Origin: an uncultured bacterium | Lineage (GTDB): Bacteria > Bipolaricaulota > Bipolaricaulia > UBA7950 > UBA9294 | NCBI GenBank assembly: GCA_903857865.1 | Contig: CAIOGO010000010.1 | Coordinates: forward strand, 186,001-250,000 | DNA length: 64,000 nucleotides | Direction: 5' to 3' | In this document: positions 390-45,262 of the stretch, piece after piece | How the letters are laid out: each line of letters starts with the position of its first letter | Position numbering within the stretch: position 1 is the stretch's first letter | Notes under the pieces: model-generated | The model's input: only the letters and a program-made list of their open reading frames with translations | Database searches by the model: none | Told to the model about the DNA's origin: nothing | Program-made: the position numbers and the translations under genes

Positions 390-1234
390 CAGAAACGGAT
401 CACCACTCCCACAGCGCCCGCCAATCCTCCGACGTGGAGGTCCCACCATCCAACCCACTCAACCATCGGCTGGACGAGTCTCGCTTCGGCGAAAAGGCGC
501 AGGAACGGGAAGCCGACTTCCAGGCGCGCGCCGACGTGCGCAGCGAGCGCCGACCAGCGGACGTCATCCAGGTGAAGAGCGGCGAGTGCTGCATCGACGC
601 CCTCTGCCCACTCCGGCGGAAGTTCGCGGCCGACGTCGACGGTCACCGCGCCGCCGGTCCAGTCGATCCCTGCCGATAGGTTGAGCGCAGCAATGACGAT
701 GTCGAACCGCTTCACCGCTTCGACGGAGATGGCCCACGCTGAGAGATCGGCATCCACGGTGAAGCGCGCTGTCTCGTCACCCAGTGCAAATTCCTCGTCC
801 AGGAGCGGATCGGGGATCTCAACCCCCGCCATGTCCGCGATGCCGCGGACGATCCCACTGCTCAGGATCCCGCCGGAAAGCCGCACGCCGTCGACAACGA
901 CGAACGGAAGCGGGATCTCAATTCCTCCTCCGATCATGGGAATGGGAACCAGCGTGGGGAACGCCGTGAGGCCCGCGTTCACGGCCGCAATCGCGGAGTC
1001 AAAGTCCGCCGCCAGGTCGGCGAGTTCGTCCGGTGGCATGCCTTGGTCGGCGAGAAGGGTGAGCAACTCGTCGGAGGCGCCGTGCAACGCAACGGGGACC
1101 CTCGCAAGGGTCCCCGCGACGTCCAGCGAGACGACCTCGCACCCCAGATCGAAGCCGCCAGCACGCACGCACGCTGCCCCCAGCACGAGGACGAACAGAA
1201 CGATGGCAGCCGCTGCAGTTCCCCTCGATATCAT
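389..1234 (-). CDS. secreted protein of unknown function
   Basis: A 281-residue protein with an N-terminal signal peptide: a short basic start, then a hydrophobic stretch of about 18 residues ending near an A-C-V-R-A-G-G segment. The rest alternates hydrophobic and polar residues with many V, L, A and G residues and aromatic W/F near the C-terminus, ending in a strand-like V-V-I-R-F. That resembles a beta-rich envelope protein, though I recognise no family. The ATG at 1234 overlaps the stop of the acyl-CoA synthetase as ATGA, so the two are probably co-translated, and its own stop overlaps the cdd start. The terminal aromatic residue could suit an outer-membrane barrel, which is speculation. 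Confidence 0.7.
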   Translation of the reverse strand: MISRGTAAAAIVLFVLVLGAACVRAGGFDLGCEVVSLDVAGTLARVPVALHGASDELLTLLADQGMPPDELADLAADFDSAIAAVNAGLTAFPTLVPIPMIGGGIEIPLPFVVVDGVRLSGGILSSGIVRGIADMAGVEIPDPLLDEEFALGDETARFTVDADLSAWAISVEAVKRFDIVIAALNLSAGIDWTGGAVTVDVGRELPPEWAEGVDAALAALHLDDVRWSALAAHVGARLEVGFPFLRLFAEARLVQPMVEWVGWWDLHVGGLAGAVGVVIRF

Positions 1235-2856
1235 CGCCGATCCCAGCCCTCCCATTCCTTCCTCTTCAGCTCGGCGCGCTTGATCTTGCCGCTCATCGTC
1301 TTCGGAAGCTCCGTGACGTATTCGATCGCGCGCGGGTACTTGTACGGCGCCGTGACCTTCTTGACGTGGTCTTGAAGCTCTTTCGTCAGCTCGGCGGACG
1401 GCGCGAAGCCCTTGGCGAGAATGACGAACGCTTTCACAATCTCGCCCCGCTCGCGGTGCGGCGCGGCTACCGCAGCCGCTTCGACGACCGCCGGGTGACT
1501 GACGAGCGCGTCCTCAACCTCGAATGGCCCGATGCGATAGCCGGAGGTCAAGATGACGTCGTCGGCACGACCTTCAAAGAAGAGATACCCGTCCTTGTCT
1601 GCCTTCGCGAGGTCTCCGGTGCGGTACCAGCCGCCGGAAAACGCTTCCTTGTCGAGCTCGGGCGCGTTCCAGTAGCCGTCGAAGATCGCCGGGTTCCCCG
1701 GCTTGAGCGCGATCTCCCCTACCTCGCCCTGCTTAACCAGGTTGCCGCTCTCGTCGATGAGCACGACGCCGGGACCCGGAGACGGAAGGCCCATGGCGCC
1801 GGGCTTCACCGGGAGCCCCGGCAGATTGCAGACAAGGCAGACGCTCTCGGTCTGGCCATAGCCGTCGCGAATGGTCACGCCGAACGCGCGTTTGAACGCC
1901 TCGATCGGCTCGACGTTGAGCGGCTCGCCGGCCGACAGAGCGTCCTTCAAGTAGATCTTGTGTTTCCCCATGTCGGGCACCTGCGCAAAGAGGCGATACT
2001 CAGTCGGCGTGCAGCAGAGCTTCGTCACTCTGTACTTCGCCAGGAGTTCGAGATACCGCTCGCCGTCGAAACGCCCGTTGTAGATGAGCTGCGTCGCGCC
2101 GGTCGTCAGCGAGACGCCGACCGGGCTCCAGTACCACTTCGCCCAGCCCGGAGCCGTCGTCGCCCAGACGACGTCCGACTCGTCTGCGTCGTACCAGTAG
2201 TGGGCGGTGACCCGGTTGTGACAGTACATCCAGTGGTGATTGTGCACGACGGGCTTCGGGTTGCCCGTCGTGCCAGAGGTGAAGTTGATCGTCATCGGGT
2301 CCTCGGCCATGAGAGGAACCTTCTTGGCGCGTGGATCGCCGGAAGCGACAAGATCCTCAAATCGCAGCCAGCCCTTGCGCGGCTCCGCGCTGCCGATCAG
2401 GATGAACGTCGAGAGCGGACATTGGCCGCGCACGGCCTCCACGATGCCGACCGTCGAGGTGTCGGCGACGATGACCTTGGCGCCCGAGGCCTGGGAGCGG
2501 TAGAGGATCTCTTTCTCTTTCAGCATTTCGGAGCACGGAACTGCAACCCCGCCGGCGACGAACGTCCCGAGTTGCGCGACGTGAGCCTCGGGAATGCGAG
2601 GCAGAATGTGCAGCACGGGCTCGTGCTTCTTCACGCCGAGCTTCATGAGGGAGTCTCCGAACCGATGCATCCCTTCTACAAGCTCGCCGTAGGTCATCTT
2701 TCTGGCGTTCCCCTCGGCATCTTCCCACAGGATGGCGAGCTTGTGCGGATTCCTCTTCGCGTGTCCCTCCACGACATCCAAAATGTTGTAGCCCGCCGGA
2801 ACGTTCCAAACGAAGTCCCTGACTTCCTTTTCGTAACTGGCCTTGTCGTACCGCAT
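1231..2856 (-). CDS. AMP-forming acyl-CoA synthetase (acetyl-CoA synthetase-like)
   Basis: ANL-superfamily enzyme that activates a carboxylate with ATP and CoA through an acyl-adenylate. The 541-residue product has the P-loop-like motif FTSGTTGNPK, the DGYGQTE adenylate motif, the YRTGD motif and the C-terminal hinge-lysine region with T-M-S-G-K-I-K. It is shorter at the N-terminus than classical Acs (about 650 residues), closer to medium-chain or benzoate-type ligases, so the substrate is uncertain (acetate, a short-chain acid or an aromatic acid). The ATG at 2856 is chosen because an AGGTGG ribosome site sits 8 nt upstream; the longer reading from 3000 adds unrelated sequence that overlaps the divergent gene. 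It heads a three-gene minus-strand unit. Confidence 0.88.
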   Translation of the reverse strand: MRYDKASYEKEVRDFVWNVPAGYNILDVVEGHAKRNPHKLAILWEDAEGNARKMTYGELVEGMHRFGDSLMKLGVKKHEPVLHILPRIPEAHVAQLGTFVAGGVAVPCSEMLKEKEILYRSQASGAKVIVADTSTVGIVEAVRGQCPLSTFILIGSAEPRKGWLRFEDLVASGDPRAKKVPLMAEDPMTINFTSGTTGNPKPVVHNHHWMYCHNRVTAHYWYDADESDVVWATTAPGWAKWYWSPVGVSLTTGATQLIYNGRFDGERYLELLAKYRVTKLCCTPTEYRLFAQVPDMGKHKIYLKDALSAGEPLNVEPIEAFKRAFGVTIRDGYGQTESVCLVCNLPGLPVKPGAMGLPSPGPGVVLIDESGNLVKQGEVGEIALKPGNPAIFDGYWNAPELDKEAFSGGWYRTGDLAKADKDGYLFFEGRADDVILTSGYRIGPFEVEDALVSHPAVVEAAAVAAPHRERGEIVKAFVILAKGFAPSAELTKELQDHVKKVTAPYKYPRAIEYVTELPKTMSGKIKRAELKRKEWEGWDRR

Positions 2857-2904
2857 CGAGATGACCACCTTGCTTGCTCGAGGTTTTGCTTTGATGCGGT
2901 GAAC

Positions 2905-2934
2905 CTTATAGCATATTCGCAAACCCTTTCGCAA
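2905..2934 (-). promoter_or_regulatory. candidate promoter of the acyl-CoA synthetase gene
   Basis: On the minus strand TTGCGA (2929-2934) and TATAAG (2905-2910) are separated by 18 nt, in the 91-bp divergent gap between the acyl-CoA synthetase and the gene at 2948. Predicted transcripts would start near 2898 with a leader of about 42 nt carrying AGGTGG. Both hexamers are imperfect. Confidence 0.4.
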
Positions 2935-2947
2935 ACAGGAGATCCCG

Positions 2948-3703
2948 ATGAATGCATCCGTGGTCCTGACCTCTGCCGCGTCGAAGCGTCTGATCGCCAA
3001 GGGCGTTGCCGCTCATCCAGGCGTCAAGAGAGCGCTCGGGGGGGGGAGGATCGTGATCACGCGGGGCACGACGAATGCGTTCGTCGCTGAGGAGCTCACC
3101 GGCGCGCCGATCGACCGTGGCGCCTACGCGGCAGGATTCATCGACCGGTGTTGGAATGTGAACGCCCGCGTGGGGGAGATGGAGGAGATCGTGCTCGTCC
3201 ACGGGAGGCCGGCCGACGAGACCCTAGATCAGACGCTGTCCTCACTCGCCGCGGGAGATGTCGTGATCAAGGGTGGCAACGCGCTCGATCCCTGGGGCGT
3301 CGTCGGCGTGTTGCTCGCGTCGGCCACCGGGGGGACCGTCGGCCGCTACGTCGCCGCCGCGCTGGCGCGAGGAGTGGACATCGTCATCCCAATCAGCGTC
3401 TCCAAGTCGATCCACACGTCCGTCATTGACCTGTCCCAGGAAATGGGCACCAGCAGAATGGGTCTCCACAATGGTCTCGCCTGCGGGATCTTCCCGCTGC
3501 ACGGGCAGATCGTGACGGAGGTCGAAGCCCTCCATCTTCTATTTGGCGTCGACGCCGTGCACGTAGCGTCCAATGGGATCGGGGCTGGAAAAGGGAGCGT
3601 GTCACTGCTCGTGTATGGGGAGGCCGCCGCCGTCAGCAACGCGTACGAGTTCGTCGCCACCTTGCACGAGGAGGCCGACGTGGAGCTGGCTGGCCGCGCT
3701 TGA
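2948..3703 (+). CDS. conserved protein of unknown function
   Basis: A 251-residue soluble protein without signal peptide or membrane segment. It has glycine-rich patches such as IKGGNALD and ASATGGTVG and a mid-protein segment of alternating I/V strands, suggestive of an alpha/beta fold that might bind a nucleotide or phosphate. I cannot name the family. The ATG at 2948 has AGGAG 7 nt upstream. It is the first gene of a tightly packed plus-strand series: its TGA at 3701-3703 overlaps the ATG of yigZ (TGATG), then ruvA and ruvX follow with ATGA overlaps. That suggests co-expression with housekeeping genes. It is transcribed divergently from the acyl-CoA synthetase. Confidence 0.75.
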   Translation: MNASVVLTSAASKRLIAKGVAAHPGVKRALGGGRIVITRGTTNAFVAEELTGAPIDRGAYAAGFIDRCWNVNARVGEMEEIVLVHGRPADETLDQTLSSLAAGDVVIKGGNALDPWGVVGVLLASATGGTVGRYVAAALARGVDIVIPISVSKSIHTSVIDLSQEMGTSRMGLHNGLACGIFPLHGQIVTEVEALHLLFGVDAVHVASNGIGAGKGSVSLLVYGEAAAVSNAYEFVATLHEEADVELAGRA

Positions 3704-4311
3704 TGGACGCGTACCGGACACTAGCAGGCCGAGGTTCGGCTCGCGTGACGCGCGAACGCTCGAGGTTTCTTGCGTTCGTTGGACCCGCGGCGACGGTCGA
3801 CGAGATCGAAGAGCGACTGGCCGCGATCCGACGCCAGTATCACGACGCAACTCACGTCTGCCATGCGTATCGATGCCGCGCTGAGCCCCGCGTCGTCGCA
3901 CATGTCGACGATGCCGGCGAACCGAGCGGCTCGGCCGGCGCGCCAATCCTACGACAACTCGAGGCCGCCGAACTCGTCGATGTGCTGGCCGTGGTCGTTC
4001 GCTACTTCGGGGGAGTCAAGCTCGGCGTTGGGGGACTCGTCCGCGCGTACGGAGCGGTCACCGCGGCCGCCCTTGCCGAGGCGCCGAGGGTCGAACGACA
4101 CCTCGAGGTCACGTTGCGTCTCCAGTTTCCCATCGAGGTCAATGCGGCCGTCCTGCGAGCCATTCGCCGACACGGAGCGCGGGTGCTCGACATCCGCTAC
4201 GATACCCAGGGCGAGGCCACGGTGACCGTGCCGCCGAGTCGCGCAACGTTGTTCGCCGATTCGGTGTGCGAGGAGACAGGAGCGCGAGCGCGCGTGGAGA
4301 GGGTGCAATGA
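3703..4311 (+). CDS. yigZ: YigZ/IMPACT family protein
   Basis: A 202-residue member of the UPF0029/IMPACT family, whose bacterial members (YigZ) are thought to interact with translation factors or nucleic acids; their exact job is not settled. Diagnostic features are the H-D-A-T-H-V-C-H-A-Y segment, DDAGEPSGSAGAP, and the VVVRYFGGVKLGVGGL core of the N-terminal domain (about residues 20-115). A ferredoxin-like C-terminal domain follows. Length is normal for YigZ. The ATG at 3703 overlaps the preceding stop (TGATG); a TTG one codon earlier is possible but less likely. It overlaps ruvA downstream by ATGA. Confidence 0.9.
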   Translation: MDAYRTLAGRGSARVTRERSRFLAFVGPAATVDEIEERLAAIRRQYHDATHVCHAYRCRAEPRVVAHVDDAGEPSGSAGAPILRQLEAAELVDVLAVVVRYFGGVKLGVGGLVRAYGAVTAAALAEAPRVERHLEVTLRLQFPIEVNAAVLRAIRRHGARVLDIRYDTQGEATVTVPPSRATLFADSVCEETGARARVERVQ

Positions 4312-4898
4312 TCGACTCCATCAGCGGGGAGGTCGTGCGAAGGGCGGCAGACTCCGTGGTCATCGACACGGGAGGAGTCGCCTATCGAGCTTCGTGTCCT
4401 GCCGGCACCTTGCGGACATGCGAGATCGGGCACGACGCGCTCCTCTACATCCACCTCATCCTGCGCGACGATACGATCGAGCTCTTCGGCTTCTCGTCGC
4501 TTCGGGAGCGCGAGCTGTTCCGCCAGCTGCTCACCGTCAGCCAGGTAGGAGCTCGCGTCGCTCTTCAGGTGCTGTCGGTCATCCCGCCCGACAAGCTCGT
4601 GGAGGCCGTGGCGGGGCGCAACGTCGACCTCCTCATGACGGTGAAAGGGGTGGGGAGGAAGACGGCGGAACGCATCCTCGTTGACCTTCACGGCAAGTTG
4701 TCCGATGCGGGAGACGGAGGAACCGAGGGACTCTTCCTTACCCCGAACGAAGAGACGGCTCTGCGCGCCCTCACGTCAAAGTCGCTCGGGTTCTCGGGAC
4801 GCGAAGCGCGAGAGGCGCTCGCTCACTTGCGCGGCGAGGCTCTCGGCGTCGAAGCCCTCATCCGCCGGGCACTCGAGGTCCTCGGTAGCCGGTCATGA
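4308..4898 (+). CDS. ruvA: Holliday junction DNA helicase subunit RuvA
   Basis: RuvA binds four-way DNA junctions as a tetramer and recruits the RuvB motor for branch migration. The 196-residue product has an N-terminal OB fold (about 1-62, with the characteristic LFGF segment), two helix-hairpin-helix motifs (about 70-140, including VKGVGRKTAERI) and a C-terminal UBA-like domain that contacts RuvB. The ATG at 4308 overlaps the yigZ stop as ATGA. Its own stop overlaps the ruvX start in the same way. Neither ruvB nor ruvC is present in this window, so they must be encoded elsewhere. Confidence 0.95.
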   Translation: MIDSISGEVVRRAADSVVIDTGGVAYRASCPAGTLRTCEIGHDALLYIHLILRDDTIELFGFSSLRERELFRQLLTVSQVGARVALQVLSVIPPDKLVEAVAGRNVDLLMTVKGVGRKTAERILVDLHGKLSDAGDGGTEGLFLTPNEETALRALTSKSLGFSGREAREALAHLRGEALGVEALIRRALEVLGSRS

Positions 4899-36555: not shown

Positions 36556-36584
36556 CTTGCGAAGATCGATTGAGAGGTGCCAGA

Positions 36585-36869
36585 GTGCGAGATTACGAGA
36601 TTGTGTATGTGATTCGTCCGGACCTTTCTGACGAGGCGAGGGCCGCCAAGGTCGAACGGGTCCACTCCCTCATCACGGAGAACGGTGGTGAGATCGGCAA
36701 GGTTGATGATTGGGGCAAGCGCATCCTCGCATACGAGATCCGTCACTTCGCCGAAGGCTACTACCGACTGACCGAATTCCGAATGCCTCCGGGATCCGTC
36801 AACCTCCTTGAGGCGCGCCTCAACCTTGACGAGGAATTGCTGCGCTACCAGATTGTGGTGCGGGAGTAA
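36585..36869 (+). CDS. rpsF: 30S ribosomal protein S6
   Basis: A 94-residue ribosomal protein of the 30S platform, binding 16S rRNA together with S18. It has the typical opening R-D-Y-E-I-V-Y-V-I-R-P-D, the W-G-K-R-I-L-A-Y-E-I segment and the C-terminal L-R-Y-Q-I-V. The GTG at 36585 is chosen because AGAGGT lies 6 nt upstream; a TTG five codons earlier is less likely. It is the first gene of the conserved rpsF-ssb-rpsR operon, separated from ssb by 9 nt. The usual fourth member, rplI, is absent. Confidence 0.95.
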   Translation: MRDYEIVYVIRPDLSDEARAAKVERVHSLITENGGEIGKVDDWGKRILAYEIRHFAEGYYRLTEFRMPPGSVNLLEARLNLDEELLRYQIVVRE

Positions 36870-36878
36870 CGAGACACC

Positions 36879-37301
36879 ATGTCCGCAAGCCTCAACCGAG
36901 TCATTCTCATCGGGAATCTGACGGCCGACCCCGAGCTGCGATACACGCCGGGGGGGACGGCACGTGTGCGGTTCTCGATCGCCGTGAATCGACAGCACAA
37001 GGATGCTTCGGGAAAAGTGCAGGAAGAAGTCACTTTCGTTCCCATCGTCGTCTGGGGGACGCAGGCTGAGAACTGCGCCAACTATCTAAGGAAGGGCCGT
37101 TCCATTGCTGTCGAGGGCCGGCTCCGCATCGACTCTTTCGAGAACGCTGATGGAGAGCGGGTTCGAATTACCGAGGTCGTCGCATCGAACGTGCAATTCC
37201 TGGGCGGGCCGCAGCGGGCGGCCGACGAGCCGACCGTGGCTCCTGAGGCTCCGATCGCCAGCGACGAGGCTCCACTCCCCGAGGAGGAGGTTCCTTTCTA
37301 A
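36879..37301 (+). CDS. ssb: single-stranded DNA-binding protein
   Basis: A 140-residue SSB. The N-terminal OB fold (about 1-108) shows L-N-R-V-I-L-I-G-N-L-T-A-D-P-E-L-R-Y and F-V-P-I-V-V-W-G. A disordered acidic linker ends in the partner-binding tip E-E-E-V-P-F (the canonical tip is D-D-D-I-P-F). It protects single-stranded DNA during replication and recruits repair enzymes. It lies between the S6 and S18 genes, as in most bacteria; a stop and ATG 4 nt apart couple it to rpsR. Confidence 0.96.
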   Translation: MSASLNRVILIGNLTADPELRYTPGGTARVRFSIAVNRQHKDASGKVQEEVTFVPIVVWGTQAENCANYLRKGRSIAVEGRLRIDSFENADGERVRITEVVASNVQFLGGPQRAADEPTVAPEAPIASDEAPLPEEEVPF

Positions 37302-37304
37302 GCC

Positions 37305-37541
37305 ATGTTTCATAAGCGAAAACGTAAGTGCCGCGCATGCGAGAACGCGTTCCTGCTTGACTACAAGAAGGCCGAGGAGCTCAAGCAGTACATGAACCGC
37401 CTTGGGAAGATCCTTCCCAAGAGGGCAACCCGTCTGTGCGCGAAACATCAGCGCAGACTCGCCATCGAGATCAATCGCGCCCGCAAGCTCGCTCTTCTTC
37501 CGTATGTGGGCGAGCGCGAAGCGATGAGAGTGCGCCGCTAG
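37305..37541 (+). CDS. rpsR: 30S ribosomal protein S18
   Basis: A 78-residue basic protein of the 30S platform that forms a heterodimer with S6. The core K-A-E-E-L-K-Q-Y-M-N-R-L-G-K-I-L-P-K-R-A-T is typical. Cysteines at the start (K-C-R-A-C) and in R-L-C-A-K-H indicate the zinc-binding form of S18. It ends the operon; a terminator-like hairpin lies 46 nt downstream. Confidence 0.95.
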   Translation: MFHKRKRKCRACENAFLLDYKKAEELKQYMNRLGKILPKRATRLCAKHQRRLAIEINRARKLALLPYVGEREAMRVRR

Positions 37542-37587
37542 CCCACGCAGGGCACAGAGCGCGCTTCCCTCAGCGAACAAAAGGCAG

Positions 37588-37620
37588 CCTCCTCGATCTT
37601 CCAGGACCGGATCGAGGAGG
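37588..37620 (+). terminator. terminator-like hairpin after rpsR
   Basis: A perfect 11-bp stem (CCTCCTCGATC and GATCGAGGAGG) with an 11-nt loop, followed by TTCCAATTTC. The stem is strong; the T tract is interrupted. Position and stability suggest transcript 3' end formation for the S6-SSB-S18 mRNA. Confidence 0.5.
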
Positions 37621-37753
37621 TTCCAATTTCGGTGGGACGGAGAAGCGGCTCTTCTGGCGTGCTCAGGATCCTGACGAGAGTCACGCAGCACGGAGTAGGA
37701 TCGGGACGGCAGGCCCATGCCACGCCGAACCGCAGGCCGGAATCGGGGGATCC

Positions 37754-38872
37754 ATGAGACGAGTTGCAGGCCTCATCTTCCATGCGCCTCTCGGAGAGAG
37801 CCGCGGGGAACGCCTCGTCGAAGAAGGGCGATGGGCGGCGGCCCTCGGTCTCGCGAGACGCCTGCGCGCGGCCGGCGTGGGAGAAGTCTATGCTGTGACC
37901 CCAAGCGCCGGCAGATGCCCCGGCGGGGAAGGCATCGTCGAGTTCATCCTCTCCGAAGCCTCGGACTTCCACTTCGGCAAGGTCTTCGCGCGTCAGATCG
38001 CCCGCCTCGAACTCGACGGAGTCCTCTACTTCGGAAGCGGAGCCGGAGGGCTCTTGGCGGAGGACGACCTCGCTCGTCTCATCGAATTCGCGGGGAAAGA
38101 GACGTCGCGGGCGTTGTTCAACAACTTCTACTCGTGCGACTTCTGCTCGGTCTCGGGCGCGCGGCGACTGCTCGACGTTGACCTCCCGGCAATCGACAAC
38201 TCGTTGGGATTCGTCCTGTCGGATGCTGGGATTCCCTGCTTCTCCCTCGCGCGAACTGCGGCGACCCAGTTCGACATCGACACTCCGACCGACCTCCTTC
38301 TCCTCGCGCGCAGCGGCTCAGGGAACCCCGAACTACGCGCATTCTGCACCACCATCCATCCATCCCATCCAACCCTCGACCGCGCCCTCGCGACCCTCAC
38401 CGATCGTTCCGCGGTGACGTGTCTCGTCGGACGGGTGAGCCCGGTCACCTGGGCTCAGTTCGAGTCGCAGGTAGCCTGTCGAACGAGCGCGCTCGTCGAG
38501 GGACGAGGAATGCGCGCCGGAGCCTCCGCGCACGTGCCGTGGCTGCGCCAGTCCCTGATGGACGACGGCCCCGAGGCGTTCTTCGCTCGACTTGCCCAGG
38601 CCTGCGATGCGGCGTGGATCGACACGCGACCGCTTCTCGCCGCGCCGGACTCGTTTCCTCCCGCGGCGGTCCGCTTCGCCAGCGATCTCTTCCACTCTGA
38701 CGACGTCCTCGATCCTGCGTGGCGAGCATTCACGGACGCCGCACTGGGCTCCTCGATCCCCGTCGTGCTCGGCGGGCACAGCCTGGTGAGCGGTGGGCTC
38801 TACCTCGCCGCAGAAGCGTGCTGGAAAGGAAGAAACCTACTCCGTAGACTTCACCCGGAACCCTTCGCGTGA
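37754..38872 (+). CDS. conserved unknown, N-terminal half MobA/CofC-like
   Basis: A 372-residue soluble protein. The first 190 residues have a Rossmann-type pattern reminiscent of MobA- or CofC-like nucleotidyltransferases: GLARRLRAAGVGEVYAV, V-L-Y-F-G-S-G-A-G-G-L-L-A, and F-D-I-D-T-P-T-D-L-L-L-L-A near residue 180. The last corresponds to the F-D-I-D-T-P-x-D-L seen near the end of those enzymes. The remaining half has no recognised domain. The stop codon overlaps a possible GTG of the SHMT-GcvT fusion, whose better ATG lies 15 nt further, so the two are probably an operon. A role in folate or cofactor chemistry is possible but unproven. Confidence 0.6.
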   Translation: MRRVAGLIFHAPLGESRGERLVEEGRWAAALGLARRLRAAGVGEVYAVTPSAGRCPGGEGIVEFILSEASDFHFGKVFARQIARLELDGVLYFGSGAGGLLAEDDLARLIEFAGKETSRALFNNFYSCDFCSVSGARRLLDVDLPAIDNSLGFVLSDAGIPCFSLARTAATQFDIDTPTDLLLLARSGSGNPELRAFCTTIHPSHPTLDRALATLTDRSAVTCLVGRVSPVTWAQFESQVACRTSALVEGRGMRAGASAHVPWLRQSLMDDGPEAFFARLAQACDAAWIDTRPLLAAPDSFPPAAVRFASDLFHSDDVLDPAWRAFTDAALGSSIPVVLGGHSLVSGGLYLAAEACWKGRNLLRRLHPEPFA

Positions 38873-38886
38873 GAAAAGGAGCGATC

Positions 38887-41800
38887 ATGAGTTACGGACG
38901 TTCTCCCCTGCATGTGCTCGATGTCGACGCACAGACGGCCGCCCTGATTGCCGCCGAGGAGCGCCGCCAGCGGGAGAAGATCATTCTCATTCCCTCGGAG
39001 AGCCTGACGCCGCTTCCCGTACGAGAAGCTTTGGGATCGGCGTTCACCAGCGTCTACGCCGAGGGCTACCCACGCAAGGCGATGATGCGGCAGACCCAAG
39101 ATGAGCTCGCCGACATCGATGTGCAGCTGGCAAGCTACCGGCGCTATGCGGATCGCCGATTCTACAAGGGAACGGAGATGGCCGACCTCGTGGAGTCGCT
39201 CGCCGCGCGACGCGCCGCGGAGTGCTTCGCCACGGCGGAGTATCCGGCGGATCGCATTTTCGCCAACGTCCAGCCGCTCTCCGGAGCCGCTGCGAACCTT
39301 GCCGTCTACGATGCCTTCGTCAAGCCCGGCGAGACCGTCATGGGCATGGCGCTCACCGAGGGCGGACACCTCACGCACGGGTCGGAGTTCAATGTGACCG
39401 GCCGGAGATACCGGATCGTCTCCTACGCGATCGATCGCGGCACGGGCAAGCTCGACTATGAGGGAATCCTCGCCCTCGCCTTGGAGCATCGCCCGCGCAT
39501 GATCATCGGCGGATTCACCACCTACCCCTGGCAGCCGGACTGGGCAAGATTCCGAGAGATTGCAGATGCTGTCGGCGCCATTCTCCTCGCCGACGTTGCG
39601 CACACGGCCGGGTTGATCGTCGGAAAGGTCTACCCGAACCCGATCGGACACGCGCACGTGGTGTCCTTCACGACGCACAAGACCCTATGCGGCGGCCGCG
39701 GCGCCGTCATTCTGTCGACCGACCCCCAGATCGCCTCGCGTATCGACACGGCCGTGTTCCCTGGCCAGCAGGGCGGGCCGCACGTGAACAAATTCGCCGC
39801 CCTAGCGGTCACGCTCAAGTTGGCACAAGAGCCAGCCTTCGCAGCTCTGCAACGCCGCATCGTCGAAAACGCACAGCACCTTGCGCGCGCGCTCGCGGAG
39901 AACGGCCTCACGATGGCCTACGGCGGCACCGACACCCACCTCCTGCTCGTCGACCTGCGGGAGATCAAGACGAACACAGGATTCGTCATGATGGGGGAGA
40001 TCGCGTCCCGTATCCTCGACCTCGCCGGGCTCGTCTGCAACAAGAACACGCTCCCCGGCGATCGGAGTGCTGCGGACGCCCACGGCATCCGACTCGGCAC
40101 ACCGTGGGCGACCCAGCGTGGCATGGGCAAGGTGGAGATGGAGGCCATCGGGCGCATCGTCGCCGAGGTGCTGTTGTCGATTCGCCCATTCTCGTACCAA
40201 GGACTACGCGGCGAGTTGTCGCGCGGCAAGCTGCCGCTCAAGGTGCTCGATCGGGCGAAGCAAGAGGTGCGGGAGATCGTAGCGCACATCGAACCGAGAG
40301 TCGGCGGTCGGACGGAGGAAGAGCGCCGACGCGCTGGTGCATCGCAGTGGACTGTCCTGCGAGTGCGCAGCGGCCGGGCAGGCGCGCTGCTCCAGGAGGC
40401 GACGACAAGTGACATTCGCCAGCTTGCCGCGTCGACATCGTGTTCGACGTATCTGATCGACGAGCAGGGGTGTGCAATTTCCTCCGCCATCGTTGGGTGT
40501 CTCGGCCGGGACGACTATGTTGTGCTCGTTCCCCCCGACTGCGCTCGCGAGGTTCACTCGTGGCTGGAGGGGCTGGCTGAAGGGTACACCTTGTTCGATT
40601 CCGGCGACTTGTTCCGCAAGATCCAGGGGCCAGCGCTCATCGAGGAGACGGACGACTCCGCCCTACCGCTGGCCGTACGGTCGTGGCTCGCGCTGCCGAT
40701 AGAAGAGAGCGTCGCGGGCCAGACCGTCACGAGAATCGCCGCGGAGAATCCCCGGAGGTTCGCGCTCGACAAGCCGTACTTCGTCGGCCAGCGATTCCTC
40801 GATCTTCAGGGAAGTCAGGCCGCGCCCCCGGCGTTCTCGTGGACCGAAGAGGGGCAAAGGAATCCGCGCACGACGGCGCTCCACGAATCGCATGTCGCGC
40901 TGGGAGCGAGGCTCGTTCCCTTCGCCGGGTGGGAGATGCCGGTCTGGTACACGTCGGCCCTCGAGGAGCACCGCACCGTGCGCCGTGCAGCAGGCCTGTT
41001 CGACCTTGGCCACATGGGAGTGTTCCAGGTCGAGGGCGAGCGCGCGACCGAGTTCCTCGATGCTGTGACATCGAACTACGAAGGCTGGCTCGAGGACGGA
41101 CAGTCGCACTACGCCTACTTGTTGGGGCCTGACGGAAAGGCCATCGACGACATCTGGGTGTACCGGCGGGCGTGGAATCGTTACCTCGTCGTTGTCAACG
41201 CGGCGAACGAGCAGAAAGATTGGGCCTGGCTGACTGGCGTCAATGAAGGGCGGTACGCCGTCGATTCGGACCATCCAGCATGCCGCCTGGCTCCCGGCGT
41301 CGTGCTGCGGGACCTGAAGCGAGAGCGAGGCGTGATGGACATCGCTCTTCAAGGTCCGAAGAGCTACACCGTACTGAAGGAGATCCTCGGCCCCGGCGAA
41401 CGCCGGCTCGTGGCTGCACTTGAGAGGACGGAGTTCGTCGAGGTCGCCGCAGACGGCCACCAACTCCTCGTAGCACGCACGGGGTACACGGGCGAGCCGT
41501 TGGGATACGAGATCTACTCCGCGGCAGCCGACGCGCTGTGGCTGTGGAACCGCCTGCTCGATCTCGGCCGACCGCTCGGCCTTCTTCCGTGCGGACTCGC
41601 GTCGCGCGACTCGACGCGGACGGAGGCGGGCCTGCCCCTCTACGGGCACGAACTGGCCGGACCTCGTGACGTCAACCCGTTCGAGGCCGGATTCGGGCCG
41701 TACGTCAAGCTGCACAAGGCCTTCTTCGTTGGCCGCGCGGCGTGCATCAACTACTACCTCGAACAGAAACGGGAGATCGTACGGTTCGAGGTGGAAGTCG

Positions 41801-42084
41801 GATCACGCCCCGTTCGCGAGGGTGCCCTCGTCCTCGACCGGAACGGAACGGTGCTCGGGCACGTGACGAGCTGTGTCAGTCTTGGCGAAGCGCAAATAGG
41901 GCTCGCCCTGCTCGAACGGCGAGGACTCGATGCGGACACACCTGTCTTGCTCGTCCCCACGCCACGCCCCGACTCCTCGCCGGAGACGGCGGATGTCGGA
42001 GCACGCCTTCCGGTGGCCAGCCCGGGACGAATCGTCTCGCGCTTCCTGGCGAGAGACCTCCCGCCGGAGAGCGAAGCAGAATAG
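38887..42084 (+). CDS. serine hydroxymethyltransferase - YgfZ-like - aminomethyltransferase (GcvT) fusion
   Basis: A 1065-residue fusion. Residues about 1-470 are serine hydroxymethyltransferase, which interconverts serine and glycine with tetrahydrofolate; the PLP lysine is Lys265 in S-F-T-T-H-K-T-L-C-G-G-R-G. Residues about 488-650 resemble a shortened YgfZ/GcvT-like folate-binding domain (VLRVRSGRAGALLQEATTSD, C-L-G-R-D-D-Y-V-V-L-V-P). Residues about 659-1065 are GcvT, the tetrahydrofolate-dependent T-protein of the glycine cleavage system (H-V-A-L-G-A-R-L-V-P-F-A-G-W-E-M-P, D-L-G-H-M-G, E-A-G-L-P-L-Y-G-H-E-L). ATG at 38887 has AAGGAG 7 nt upstream. Proteins P, H and L are not in this window. 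Confidence 0.93.
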   Translation: MSYGRSPLHVLDVDAQTAALIAAEERRQREKIILIPSESLTPLPVREALGSAFTSVYAEGYPRKAMMRQTQDELADIDVQLASYRRYADRRFYKGTEMADLVESLAARRAAECFATAEYPADRIFANVQPLSGAAANLAVYDAFVKPGETVMGMALTEGGHLTHGSEFNVTGRRYRIVSYAIDRGTGKLDYEGILALALEHRPRMIIGGFTTYPWQPDWARFREIADAVGAILLADVAHTAGLIVGKVYPNPIGHAHVVSFTTHKTLCGGRGAVILSTDPQIASRIDTAVFPGQQGGPHVNKFAALAVTLKLAQEPAFAALQRRIVENAQHLARALAENGLTMAYGGTDTHLLLVDLREIKTNTGFVMMGEIASRILDLAGLVCNKNTLPGDRSAADAHGIRLGTPWATQRGMGKVEMEAIGRIVAEVLLSIRPFSYQGLRGELSRGKLPLKVLDRAKQEVREIVAHIEPRVGGRTEEERRRAGASQWTVLRVRSGRAGALLQEATTSDIRQLAASTSCSTYLIDEQGCAISSAIVGCLGRDDYVVLVPPDCAREVHSWLEGLAEGYTLFDSGDLFRKIQGPALIEETDDSALPLAVRSWLALPIEESVAGQTVTRIAAENPRRFALDKPYFVGQRFLDLQGSQAAPPAFSWTEEGQRNPRTTALHESHVALGARLVPFAGWEMPVWYTSALEEHRTVRRAAGLFDLGHMGVFQVEGERATEFLDAVTSNYEGWLEDGQSHYAYLLGPDGKAIDDIWVYRRAWNRYLVVVNAANEQKDWAWLTGVNEGRYAVDSDHPACRLAPGVVLRDLKRERGVMDIALQGPKSYTVLKEILGPGERRLVAALERTEFVEVAADGHQLLVARTGYTGEPLGYEIYSAAADALWLWNRLLDLGRPLGLLPCGLASRDSTRTEAGLPLYGHELAGPRDVNPFEAGFGPYVKLHKAFFVGRAACINYYLEQKREIVRFEVEVGSRPVREGALVLDRNGTVLGHVTSCVSLGEAQIGLALLERRGLDADTPVLLVPTPRPDSSPETADVGARLPVASPGRIVSRFLARDLPPESEAE

Positions 42085-44153: not shown

Positions 44154-45262
44154 GTGTCCGATGCGCGCGTTGAGAAGCTGGCGCAGGTATTGGTGCAGTA
44201 CTCGATGTCCATTCGATGCAACGACAGGGTCTACGTGCAGGGGAGTTCCCTTGCCGAGCCGCTTCTCAAAGCCATCCTCGTCGAGGTCTTGAAAGCTGGA
44301 GGACATCCTCATGTGCGTGCCCAGCTCCCGGGTGCGGAAGAACTCTTCTACCGCTACGCATCGGACGATCAACTCCAGCACGTGGCTCCTGCCACGCGCC
44401 TGCTCTACGAGACCTACGACGCCATGATCAGTATCTGGAGCGCCGCGAACACGAGGGAACTCACGAATGTTCCCCCGCAGAAACTCGTCCTCGCCCAGCA
44501 ATCCTCGCGTGAGCTGTTCCGAACCTTCACGCAACGCACGGCGGCCGGCGAGCTTCACTGGGTAGGCACGCTGTTCCCGACCACGGCGTTCGCCCAGGAC
44601 GCTGAGATGGGCCTCGCGGAGTACGAGGACTTCGTCTACAACGCCTGCCTGCCGGATTCTGCCGACCCCGTAGGCCACTGGCAACGCCTCTCGACGTGGC
44701 AGCAGACGTTGGTGGATTGGCTCAAAGGAAGAGAGACTCTGCGCGTCGAGGCGCCCGAGGTGGATCTGCGGATGAGGATCTCCGGCCGCACCTTCGTGAA
44801 TTGCGACGGAAAGAGGAACATGCCGGACGGCGAGATTTTCACGGGCCCGGTGGAAGACAGCGTCGAGGGCCACGTTCGCTTCTCCTATCCCACCGTCTAT
44901 CAGGGACGCCGTCTCGACGGCGTGCATGTCTGCTTCAAGAACGGGAGGTCGCGAAAGCAACGGCCGACAGGGGCGAGGGCTTTCTCCTGCGGACTCTGGA
45001 TGCAGACGAGGGGGCTCGCTACGTCCGTGAGTTCGCCATCGGGACGAACAAGGGAATTACGCGCGCAACGGGCAACACGCTGTTCGGCGAGAAGATCTGC
45101 GGCAGCTTCCACATGGCCCTCGGGGCCGGAATGCCCGAGACGGGGAGTCGCAACGAGTCGGCCATCCACTGGGACATGGTGTGCGACCTCATGCAGGGCG
45201 GTCGGATCTGGGTCGATGACGAACTGATCTACGAGAATGGGGACTTCGTCATTCGCGGCTAG
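44154..45262 (+). CDS. M29 aminopeptidase T-like metalloprotease, frameshifted
   Basis: A thermophilic-aminopeptidase (M29) relative. The first frame, 44154-44945, carries the N-terminal domain and the catalytic-domain start with G-E-I-F-T-G-P-V-E-D-S-V-E-G. At 44943-44945 (GGG in AAC-GGG-AGG) the reading must move by -1 to continue as E-V-A-K-A-T-A-D-R to the stop at 45262. The second part supplies metal ligands (S-F-H-M-A-L-G, I-H-W-D-M-V). Left in one frame the protein stops at 45227 with nonsense sequence. One missing G, or a sequence error, explains this; there is no slippery heptamer. GTG start has AAAGGAG upstream. It is followed by an M20 hydrolase. Confidence 0.82.

Follow-up and report, generated by a model that had tools for sequence, protein, structure and literature searches.

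A single gene in the window analysed here (the whole stretch of DNA, 64,000 nucleotides long) encodes serine hydroxymethyltransferase (SHMT) and a complete T-protein of the glycine cleavage system (GcvT) on one polypeptide chain, with a degenerate copy of part of a GcvT between them. We consider it probable, at roughly 0.75, that the product is a bifunctional SHMT/T-protein that interconverts glycine and serine with a local hand-over of methylene-tetrahydrofolate (methylene-THF), the dead T-copy serving as a spacer or scaffold. Methylene-THF links SHMT with the glycine cleavage system in amino-acid fermentation, photorespiration and the reductive glycine pathway. Direct folate hand-over between the enzymes is hard to test, as they normally occur as separate proteins; the fusion is a ready-made single-chain system for such a test, and it may also be of use in engineered glycine/serine pathways. 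We found no published description of an SHMT-GcvT fusion in the open-licence PMC literature.

The coding sequence specifies 1065 residues followed by a TAG stop codon at 42082-42084, and the open frame on the + strand extends from 38869, or from the ATG at 38887, to 42084. The sequence-only reading had given the gene these coordinates and this length, and both are right, the ATG, the AAGGAG ahead of it and the TAG all being read in the sequence. The domains follow one another in the order SHMT (residues 7-468), degenerate module (485-640) and GcvT (660-1056). The full-length protein was modelled as one chain with AlphaFold2 (AF2) at a pLDDT of 84.8 and a pTM of 0.84. The earlier proposal of a fusion between SHMT and a complete GcvT was borne out by Pfam matches to SHMT (PF00464, 380.9 bits against a cut-off of 27) and GCV_T (PF01571, 266.3 bits against a cut-off of 25.6). 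An error of assembly or base calling that joined two neighbouring genes could in principle give the same picture. We found no point in favour of such an artefact; the uninterrupted ORF recurs across two phyla in dozens of independent assemblies, with conserved junction motifs, and we regard the probability of this explanation as negligible.

Table 1 Features of the SHMT-GcvT fusion gene, in window coordinates.
Feature	Position	Strand	Basis or remark
Ribosome-binding site AAGGAG	38876..38881	+	5 nt upstream of ATG 38887; read directly
SHMT - GcvT relic - GcvT fusion CDS	38887..42084	+	Homologous full-length fusions found in other genomes
Serine hydroxymethyltransferase domain, complete, residues 7-468	38905..40290	+	PF00464, PRK00011, structure match
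26-residue insert, residues 63-88	39073..39150	+	In fused SHMTs; alignment
Lys265, PLP Schiff-base lysine	39679..39681	+	Aligned to E. coli GlyA K229
Linker, variable, residues 469-484	40291..40338	+	dN/dS ~0.2 to >1 in close pairs; pLDDT low at 474-483
Middle module core, T-protein inserted domain (GcvT profile 47-127), catalytically degenerate, residues 485-590	40339..40656	+	GCV_T, hhalign, AF2
Ser532-Ser533, replacing T-protein Asp-Asp	40480..40485	+	Alignment; D97 is the catalytic residue of the E. coli T-protein structures
Residues 623-640, RFALDKPYFVGQ, remnant of later GcvT segment	40753..40806	+	Alignment with more intact middle copies L128, L127
Complete T-protein (aminomethyltransferase), residues 660-1056	40864..42054	+	Pfam GCV_T 266.3 bits; structure match
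Asp755, T-protein catalytic Asp	41149..41151	+	Alignment; invariance

The N-terminal half is a complete SHMT. Beyond its Pfam match, it matched the NCBIfam model PRK00011 at 419.5 bits (cut-off 335). The corresponding part of the structure model (residues 7-466) aligned with the Geobacillus SHMT 1kkj with a Z of 44.5 and an rmsd of 2.0 over 402 residues, with 46% identity over the aligned structure. Lys265, already picked out in the sequence-only reading, was found to align with the Schiff-base lysine K229 of E. coli GlyA, and E59, Y93, H161, D236, H239 and R402 aligned with GlyA E57, Y65, H126, D200, H203 and R363, respectively. K265, E59 and R402 were invariant in 43 fusions. The SHMT half thus has the complete fold and the catalytic residues in common with GlyA, but GlyA has neither the 26-residue insert at residues 63-88 nor a permanent link to GcvT. 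The insert is also missing from the aligned stand-alone SHMTs of Bipolaricaulota. In the fused SHMTs it has a conserved RRYAD stretch at its end. SHMTs function as dimers or tetramers, and it is possible that the insert makes contact with GcvT or is placed at the SHMT dimer interface.

The C-terminal half is a complete T-protein. The whole protein scored 236.6 bits with TIGR00528 (cut-off 235.85), while the isolated GcvT half scored 229.1 bits, slightly below the cut-off. The profile of the C-terminal barrel (GCV_T_C) reached 19 bits, which is below its Pfam cut-off of 25.9 bits; the barrel is covered by the structure model. Residues 660-1065 of the model have the three-domain fold of the T. 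maritima T-protein 1wos (Z 46.1, rmsd 1.7), with 356 of 361 residues aligned at 36% identity. The catalytic Asp and the folate-site Asn, Glu and Arg (D755, N771, E870 and R907) were invariant in 43 fusions. The complete fold and these four residues are common to the fused GcvT and to known T-proteins. Compared with the stand-alone GcvTs sampled, however, the fused GcvT differs by its link to SHMT, by the truncated second copy ahead of it and by its position on a separate side of the tree.

The host genome belongs to Candidatus Bipolaricaulota and is 2.24 Mb in size and 91% complete; the closest relatives that carry a name are Candidatus Bipolaricaulota / Acetothermia. We searched it for any other SHMT or GcvT and matched none besides the fusion gene in this 91%-complete assembly, the missing part of which could hide one. 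The partners that had been proposed as a check, gcvH, gcvP and lpd, were all found to be encoded in the genome: gcvH, gcvPA and gcvPB are grouped on another contig (C6), away from the fusion gene, and lpd (lipoamide dehydrogenase) was matched above its cut-off. Formate-THF ligase (FTHFS) is encoded as well. As the genome has no separate T-protein, its glycine cleavage system would be incomplete unless the fusion serves it. Both enzyme activities are strongly implied for the fusion protein because the active-site residues are kept and each half is the sole copy of its enzyme.

The same fusion was sought in other genomes and was found to be present across Bipolaricaulota and Chloroflexota. A long fused frame containing the middle module was present in 73 of 100 Bipolaricaulota genomes, comprising nearly every genome of family f1, most of f4, f5, and some of f6, while families f3, f7 and f8 have SHMT and GcvT as separate genes. 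In Chloroflexota, the fusion was present in at least 28 of 301 genomes, a lower bound set by a strict threshold. Among the fusion-bearing Bipolaricaulota, a stand-alone SHMT was matched only in genome G031, which is 8% contaminated, and a stand-alone GcvT was matched in no fusion-bearing relative from this phylum. In most of the sampled Bipolaricaulota genomes, the fusion seems to have taken the place of both stand-alone enzymes. Some Chloroflexota genomes (G100, G101, G102, G103, G107 and G108) contain two paralogous SHMT-relic-GcvT fusions each; in G102 a single contig carries both, ~6 kb from each other. The middle module is more divergent in the second copies of such genomes.

Genes for other glycine cleavage proteins adjoin the fusion in some relatives. 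In four loci (L102, L108, L110 and L111), gcvH, gcvPA and gcvPB adjoin the fusion, and in L110 and L111 they lie directly behind it, which connects the fused GcvT with glycine cleavage. These loci also bear on whether the GcvT half could be another folate-dependent demethylase, of the sarcosine, dimethylglycine or DMSP type. Matches to the soxA and demethylase families were found, but they are weaker, the GcvT models scoring 280 bits as against 128 bits or less. With the gcvH-gcvP neighbours in four relatives, and with the fusion gene being the sole GcvT match in a genome that has gcvH, gcvPA, gcvPB and lpd, we consider a demethylase very improbable.

The middle module had been described from the sequence as a shortened YgfZ/GcvT-like folate-binding module and as a possible relic of a second GcvT-type domain. 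The reading as a relic was supported, the YgfZ label was not, and the folate-binding label is doubtful. When the host genome was searched with GCV_T, a second stretch in the middle segment was matched with an E-value of 3e-8, and the match of the window's own module had an E-value of 1.5e-8 and 34.7 bits (cut-off 25.6 bits). All 40 of 40 middle modules were matched by Pfam GCV_T, the best at 3e-16. When profiles of the module and of these proteins' own GcvT halves were compared with hhalign, the probability was 99 and the E-value 3e-19. Residues 472-650 folded alone with AF2 gave a pLDDT of 87.4, and residues 16-280 of the T-protein 1yx2 aligned with this model with a Z of 17.7. The similarity of the middle segment to the folate-binding superfamily was found both as a GcvT sequence match and as a T-protein fold.

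The fold alone is also that of YgfZ/IBA57. The middle module shares the superfamily fold with these proteins (Z 14-16), the structural matches include YgfZ 1nrk (Z 15.6), and the motif KPYFVGQ resembles the YgfZ motif KGCYTGQ, as might be expected if an Fe-S-related YgfZ/IBA57-type domain had been inserted between the two enzymes. The sequence models nevertheless pick GcvT: the GcvT model PRK00389 matched 35 of 40 members, while YgfZ matched 1 of 40, at an E-value of 0.16. In the alignment, the YgfZ-like KPYFVGQ corresponds to the GcvT segment K-x-x-F-[IV]-G and has no Cys, whereas YgfZ/IBA57 proteins have the cysteine of KGCYxGQE. In addition, the more intact middle copy of locus L128 is a GcvT and groups with the fusion GcvTs. 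A YgfZ identity was rejected on sequence and ancestry, with the fold shared, and we regard this origin as improbable in the extreme.

The window's middle module has lost about half of the domain. According to the alignment, the half-domain that preceded residues 623-640 had carried the folate-site Glu and Arg and was deleted. Position 533 is Asp in 3 of 43 fusions and another residue in the remaining 40. The module has neither the catalytic Asp nor the whole folate domain of an active T-protein. Because Asp-Asp is now Ser-Ser and the half with Glu and Arg is deleted, T-protein catalysis by the middle module is very unlikely, and the same two losses make its description as folate-binding doubtful.

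Less degraded middle copies were found in relatives. The least degraded one seen is that of L128, a Chloroflexota locus (genome G130, 1032-4787) with an ORF of 1252 aa. Its middle copy is ~310 aa long, has a near-whole GcvT folate domain with Asp-Asp kept and is 39% identical to its own GcvT over 312 aa. In L127 the middle copy is shorter and has diverged further (30%), and in L111 and L096 it keeps ~130 aa and the KPYFVGQ-type segment. MDD or MDE is kept at the catalytic position in the middle modules of L096 and L103. In a phylogenetic tree of GcvT sequences, the L128 middle copy was placed inside the fusion-GcvT side with a support of 100/100, on a long branch that leaves its exact position unsure. 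This tree excludes YgfZ and the L127 middle copy; when both were included, long branches left the middle copies unplaced. Because the L128 copy sits within the fusion-GcvT side, a tandem duplication of the fused GcvT is the best reading of the middle module's origin. The series from the near-complete tandem GcvT of L128 to the short relic in the window is a clear graded case of an enzyme domain becoming a non-catalytic linker domain.

The middle module is under purifying selection. Its dN/dS between close relatives was 0.05-0.41, which exceeds the values for SHMT and, in most pairs, those for GcvT, but is well below 1. The linker that precedes the module was near neutral in several close pairs. 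R497, W559, D571, D574 and K578 of the module were invariant in 43 fusions from both phyla. A role as a structural spacer or scaffold between the two folate enzymes fits these observations. A plainer arrangement is less credible, and we put it a little short of even odds: both enzymes are active, but the fusion serves only to hold them at a fixed ratio and to have them expressed together, with the module as an inert spacer and methylene-THF in equilibrium with the bulk. Variable linkers flank the module on both sides, its catalytic residues are lost, and sister families have SHMT and GcvT as separate proteins, all of which suits a simple tether. However, the five invariant residues and the purifying selection exceed what an arbitrary spacer needs. 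They could instead reflect a role of the module's own, either folate binding, as a reservoir or relay of polyglutamyl-THF, or docking of GcvH or GcvP. T-proteins dock GcvH, and the compact T-protein subdomain fold, the invariance of polar and aromatic residues and the low dN/dS are in line with such a role. It is nonetheless unlikely in our view, given the replacement of the catalytic Asp here and in nearly all other fusions and the loss of the half that carried the folate-site Glu and Arg.

In the bifunctional enzyme that we favour, the N-terminal SHMT, with PLP on Lys265, would convert glycine and 5,10-methylene-THF to serine and THF, and the C-terminal T-protein would convert the aminomethyl arm of GcvH and THF to methylene-THF and ammonia, both reactions being reversible. 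Together with GcvP, GcvH and Lpd, which are encoded elsewhere and with which the fusion is expected to co-operate, the net result would be the conversion of two glycine to serine, CO2, NH3 and reducing equivalents, or the reverse. Run in reverse, the system would make glycine and serine from one-carbon units. THF would cycle between the two sites of the single chain, and a local hand-over of methylene-THF between them is plausible. The middle module would have originated by tandem duplication of the GcvT folate domain, then lost the catalytic Asp and most of domain 1 while keeping the fold of the inserted subdomain, and would now most likely be a rigid spacer or scaffold between both enzymes. 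A stronger version is a natural methylene-THF channel, in which the dead T-copy positions the two folate sites or shapes the path between them and the one-carbon unit of one glycine is passed directly to a second glycine. We offer this version only tentatively and would sooner bet against it. If it is true, a duplicated catalytic domain was worn down into a channelling scaffold across two phyla.

Other proteins join folate modules in comparable ways. In dimethylglycine dehydrogenase/oxidase and the alpha subunit of sarcosine oxidase, a C-terminal T-protein-like folate module takes up a one-carbon unit, and proteins of these types were among the structural matches of the fusion model. There the one-carbon unit comes from the partner, a flavin amine oxidase, whereas here the partner is SHMT, which is able to consume methylene-THF. 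DHFR-TS and FTCD are classic channelling cases in which consecutive folate enzymes are located on a single chain. The fusion resembles them in chaining folate enzymes, but the domains are unrelated, and SHMT-GcvT is another pair.

We constructed phylogenetic trees of both halves of the fusion. The fused SHMTs formed one side of a branch against the sampled stand-alone SHMTs (100/100), and the fused GcvTs likewise formed one side against the sampled stand-alone GcvTs. The trees include 8 stand-alone GcvTs and 11 stand-alone SHMTs, so that a single origin here means only this one-sided grouping. The pattern fits a single fusion event with later spread, a history that is provisional because the stand-alone sample is small. 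The fusions of L096 and L103, from Bipolaricaulota family f5, grouped among the Chloroflexota fusions and not with those of other Bipolaricaulota, which suggests lateral transfer.

Other features were noted around the fusion gene. Homologues of rpsF and ssb were found near the fusion in ~40 of 80 loci, including many Bipolaricaulota (window 36570-37301; L037-L116). This neighbourhood is conserved and functionally unrelated to the fusion. The upstream ORF (window 37436-38872, +) ends 14 nt ahead of the fusion ATG and has no Pfam match; its true start probably lies further in. Downstream, at 44154-45262 (+), a gene for an M29 aminopeptidase is apparently frameshifted. Its first ORF covers positions 2-286 of the 406 of the M29 profile, and an apparent continuation of the peptide is encoded in another frame (ORF 44696-45262), which is either a real lesion or an assembly error.
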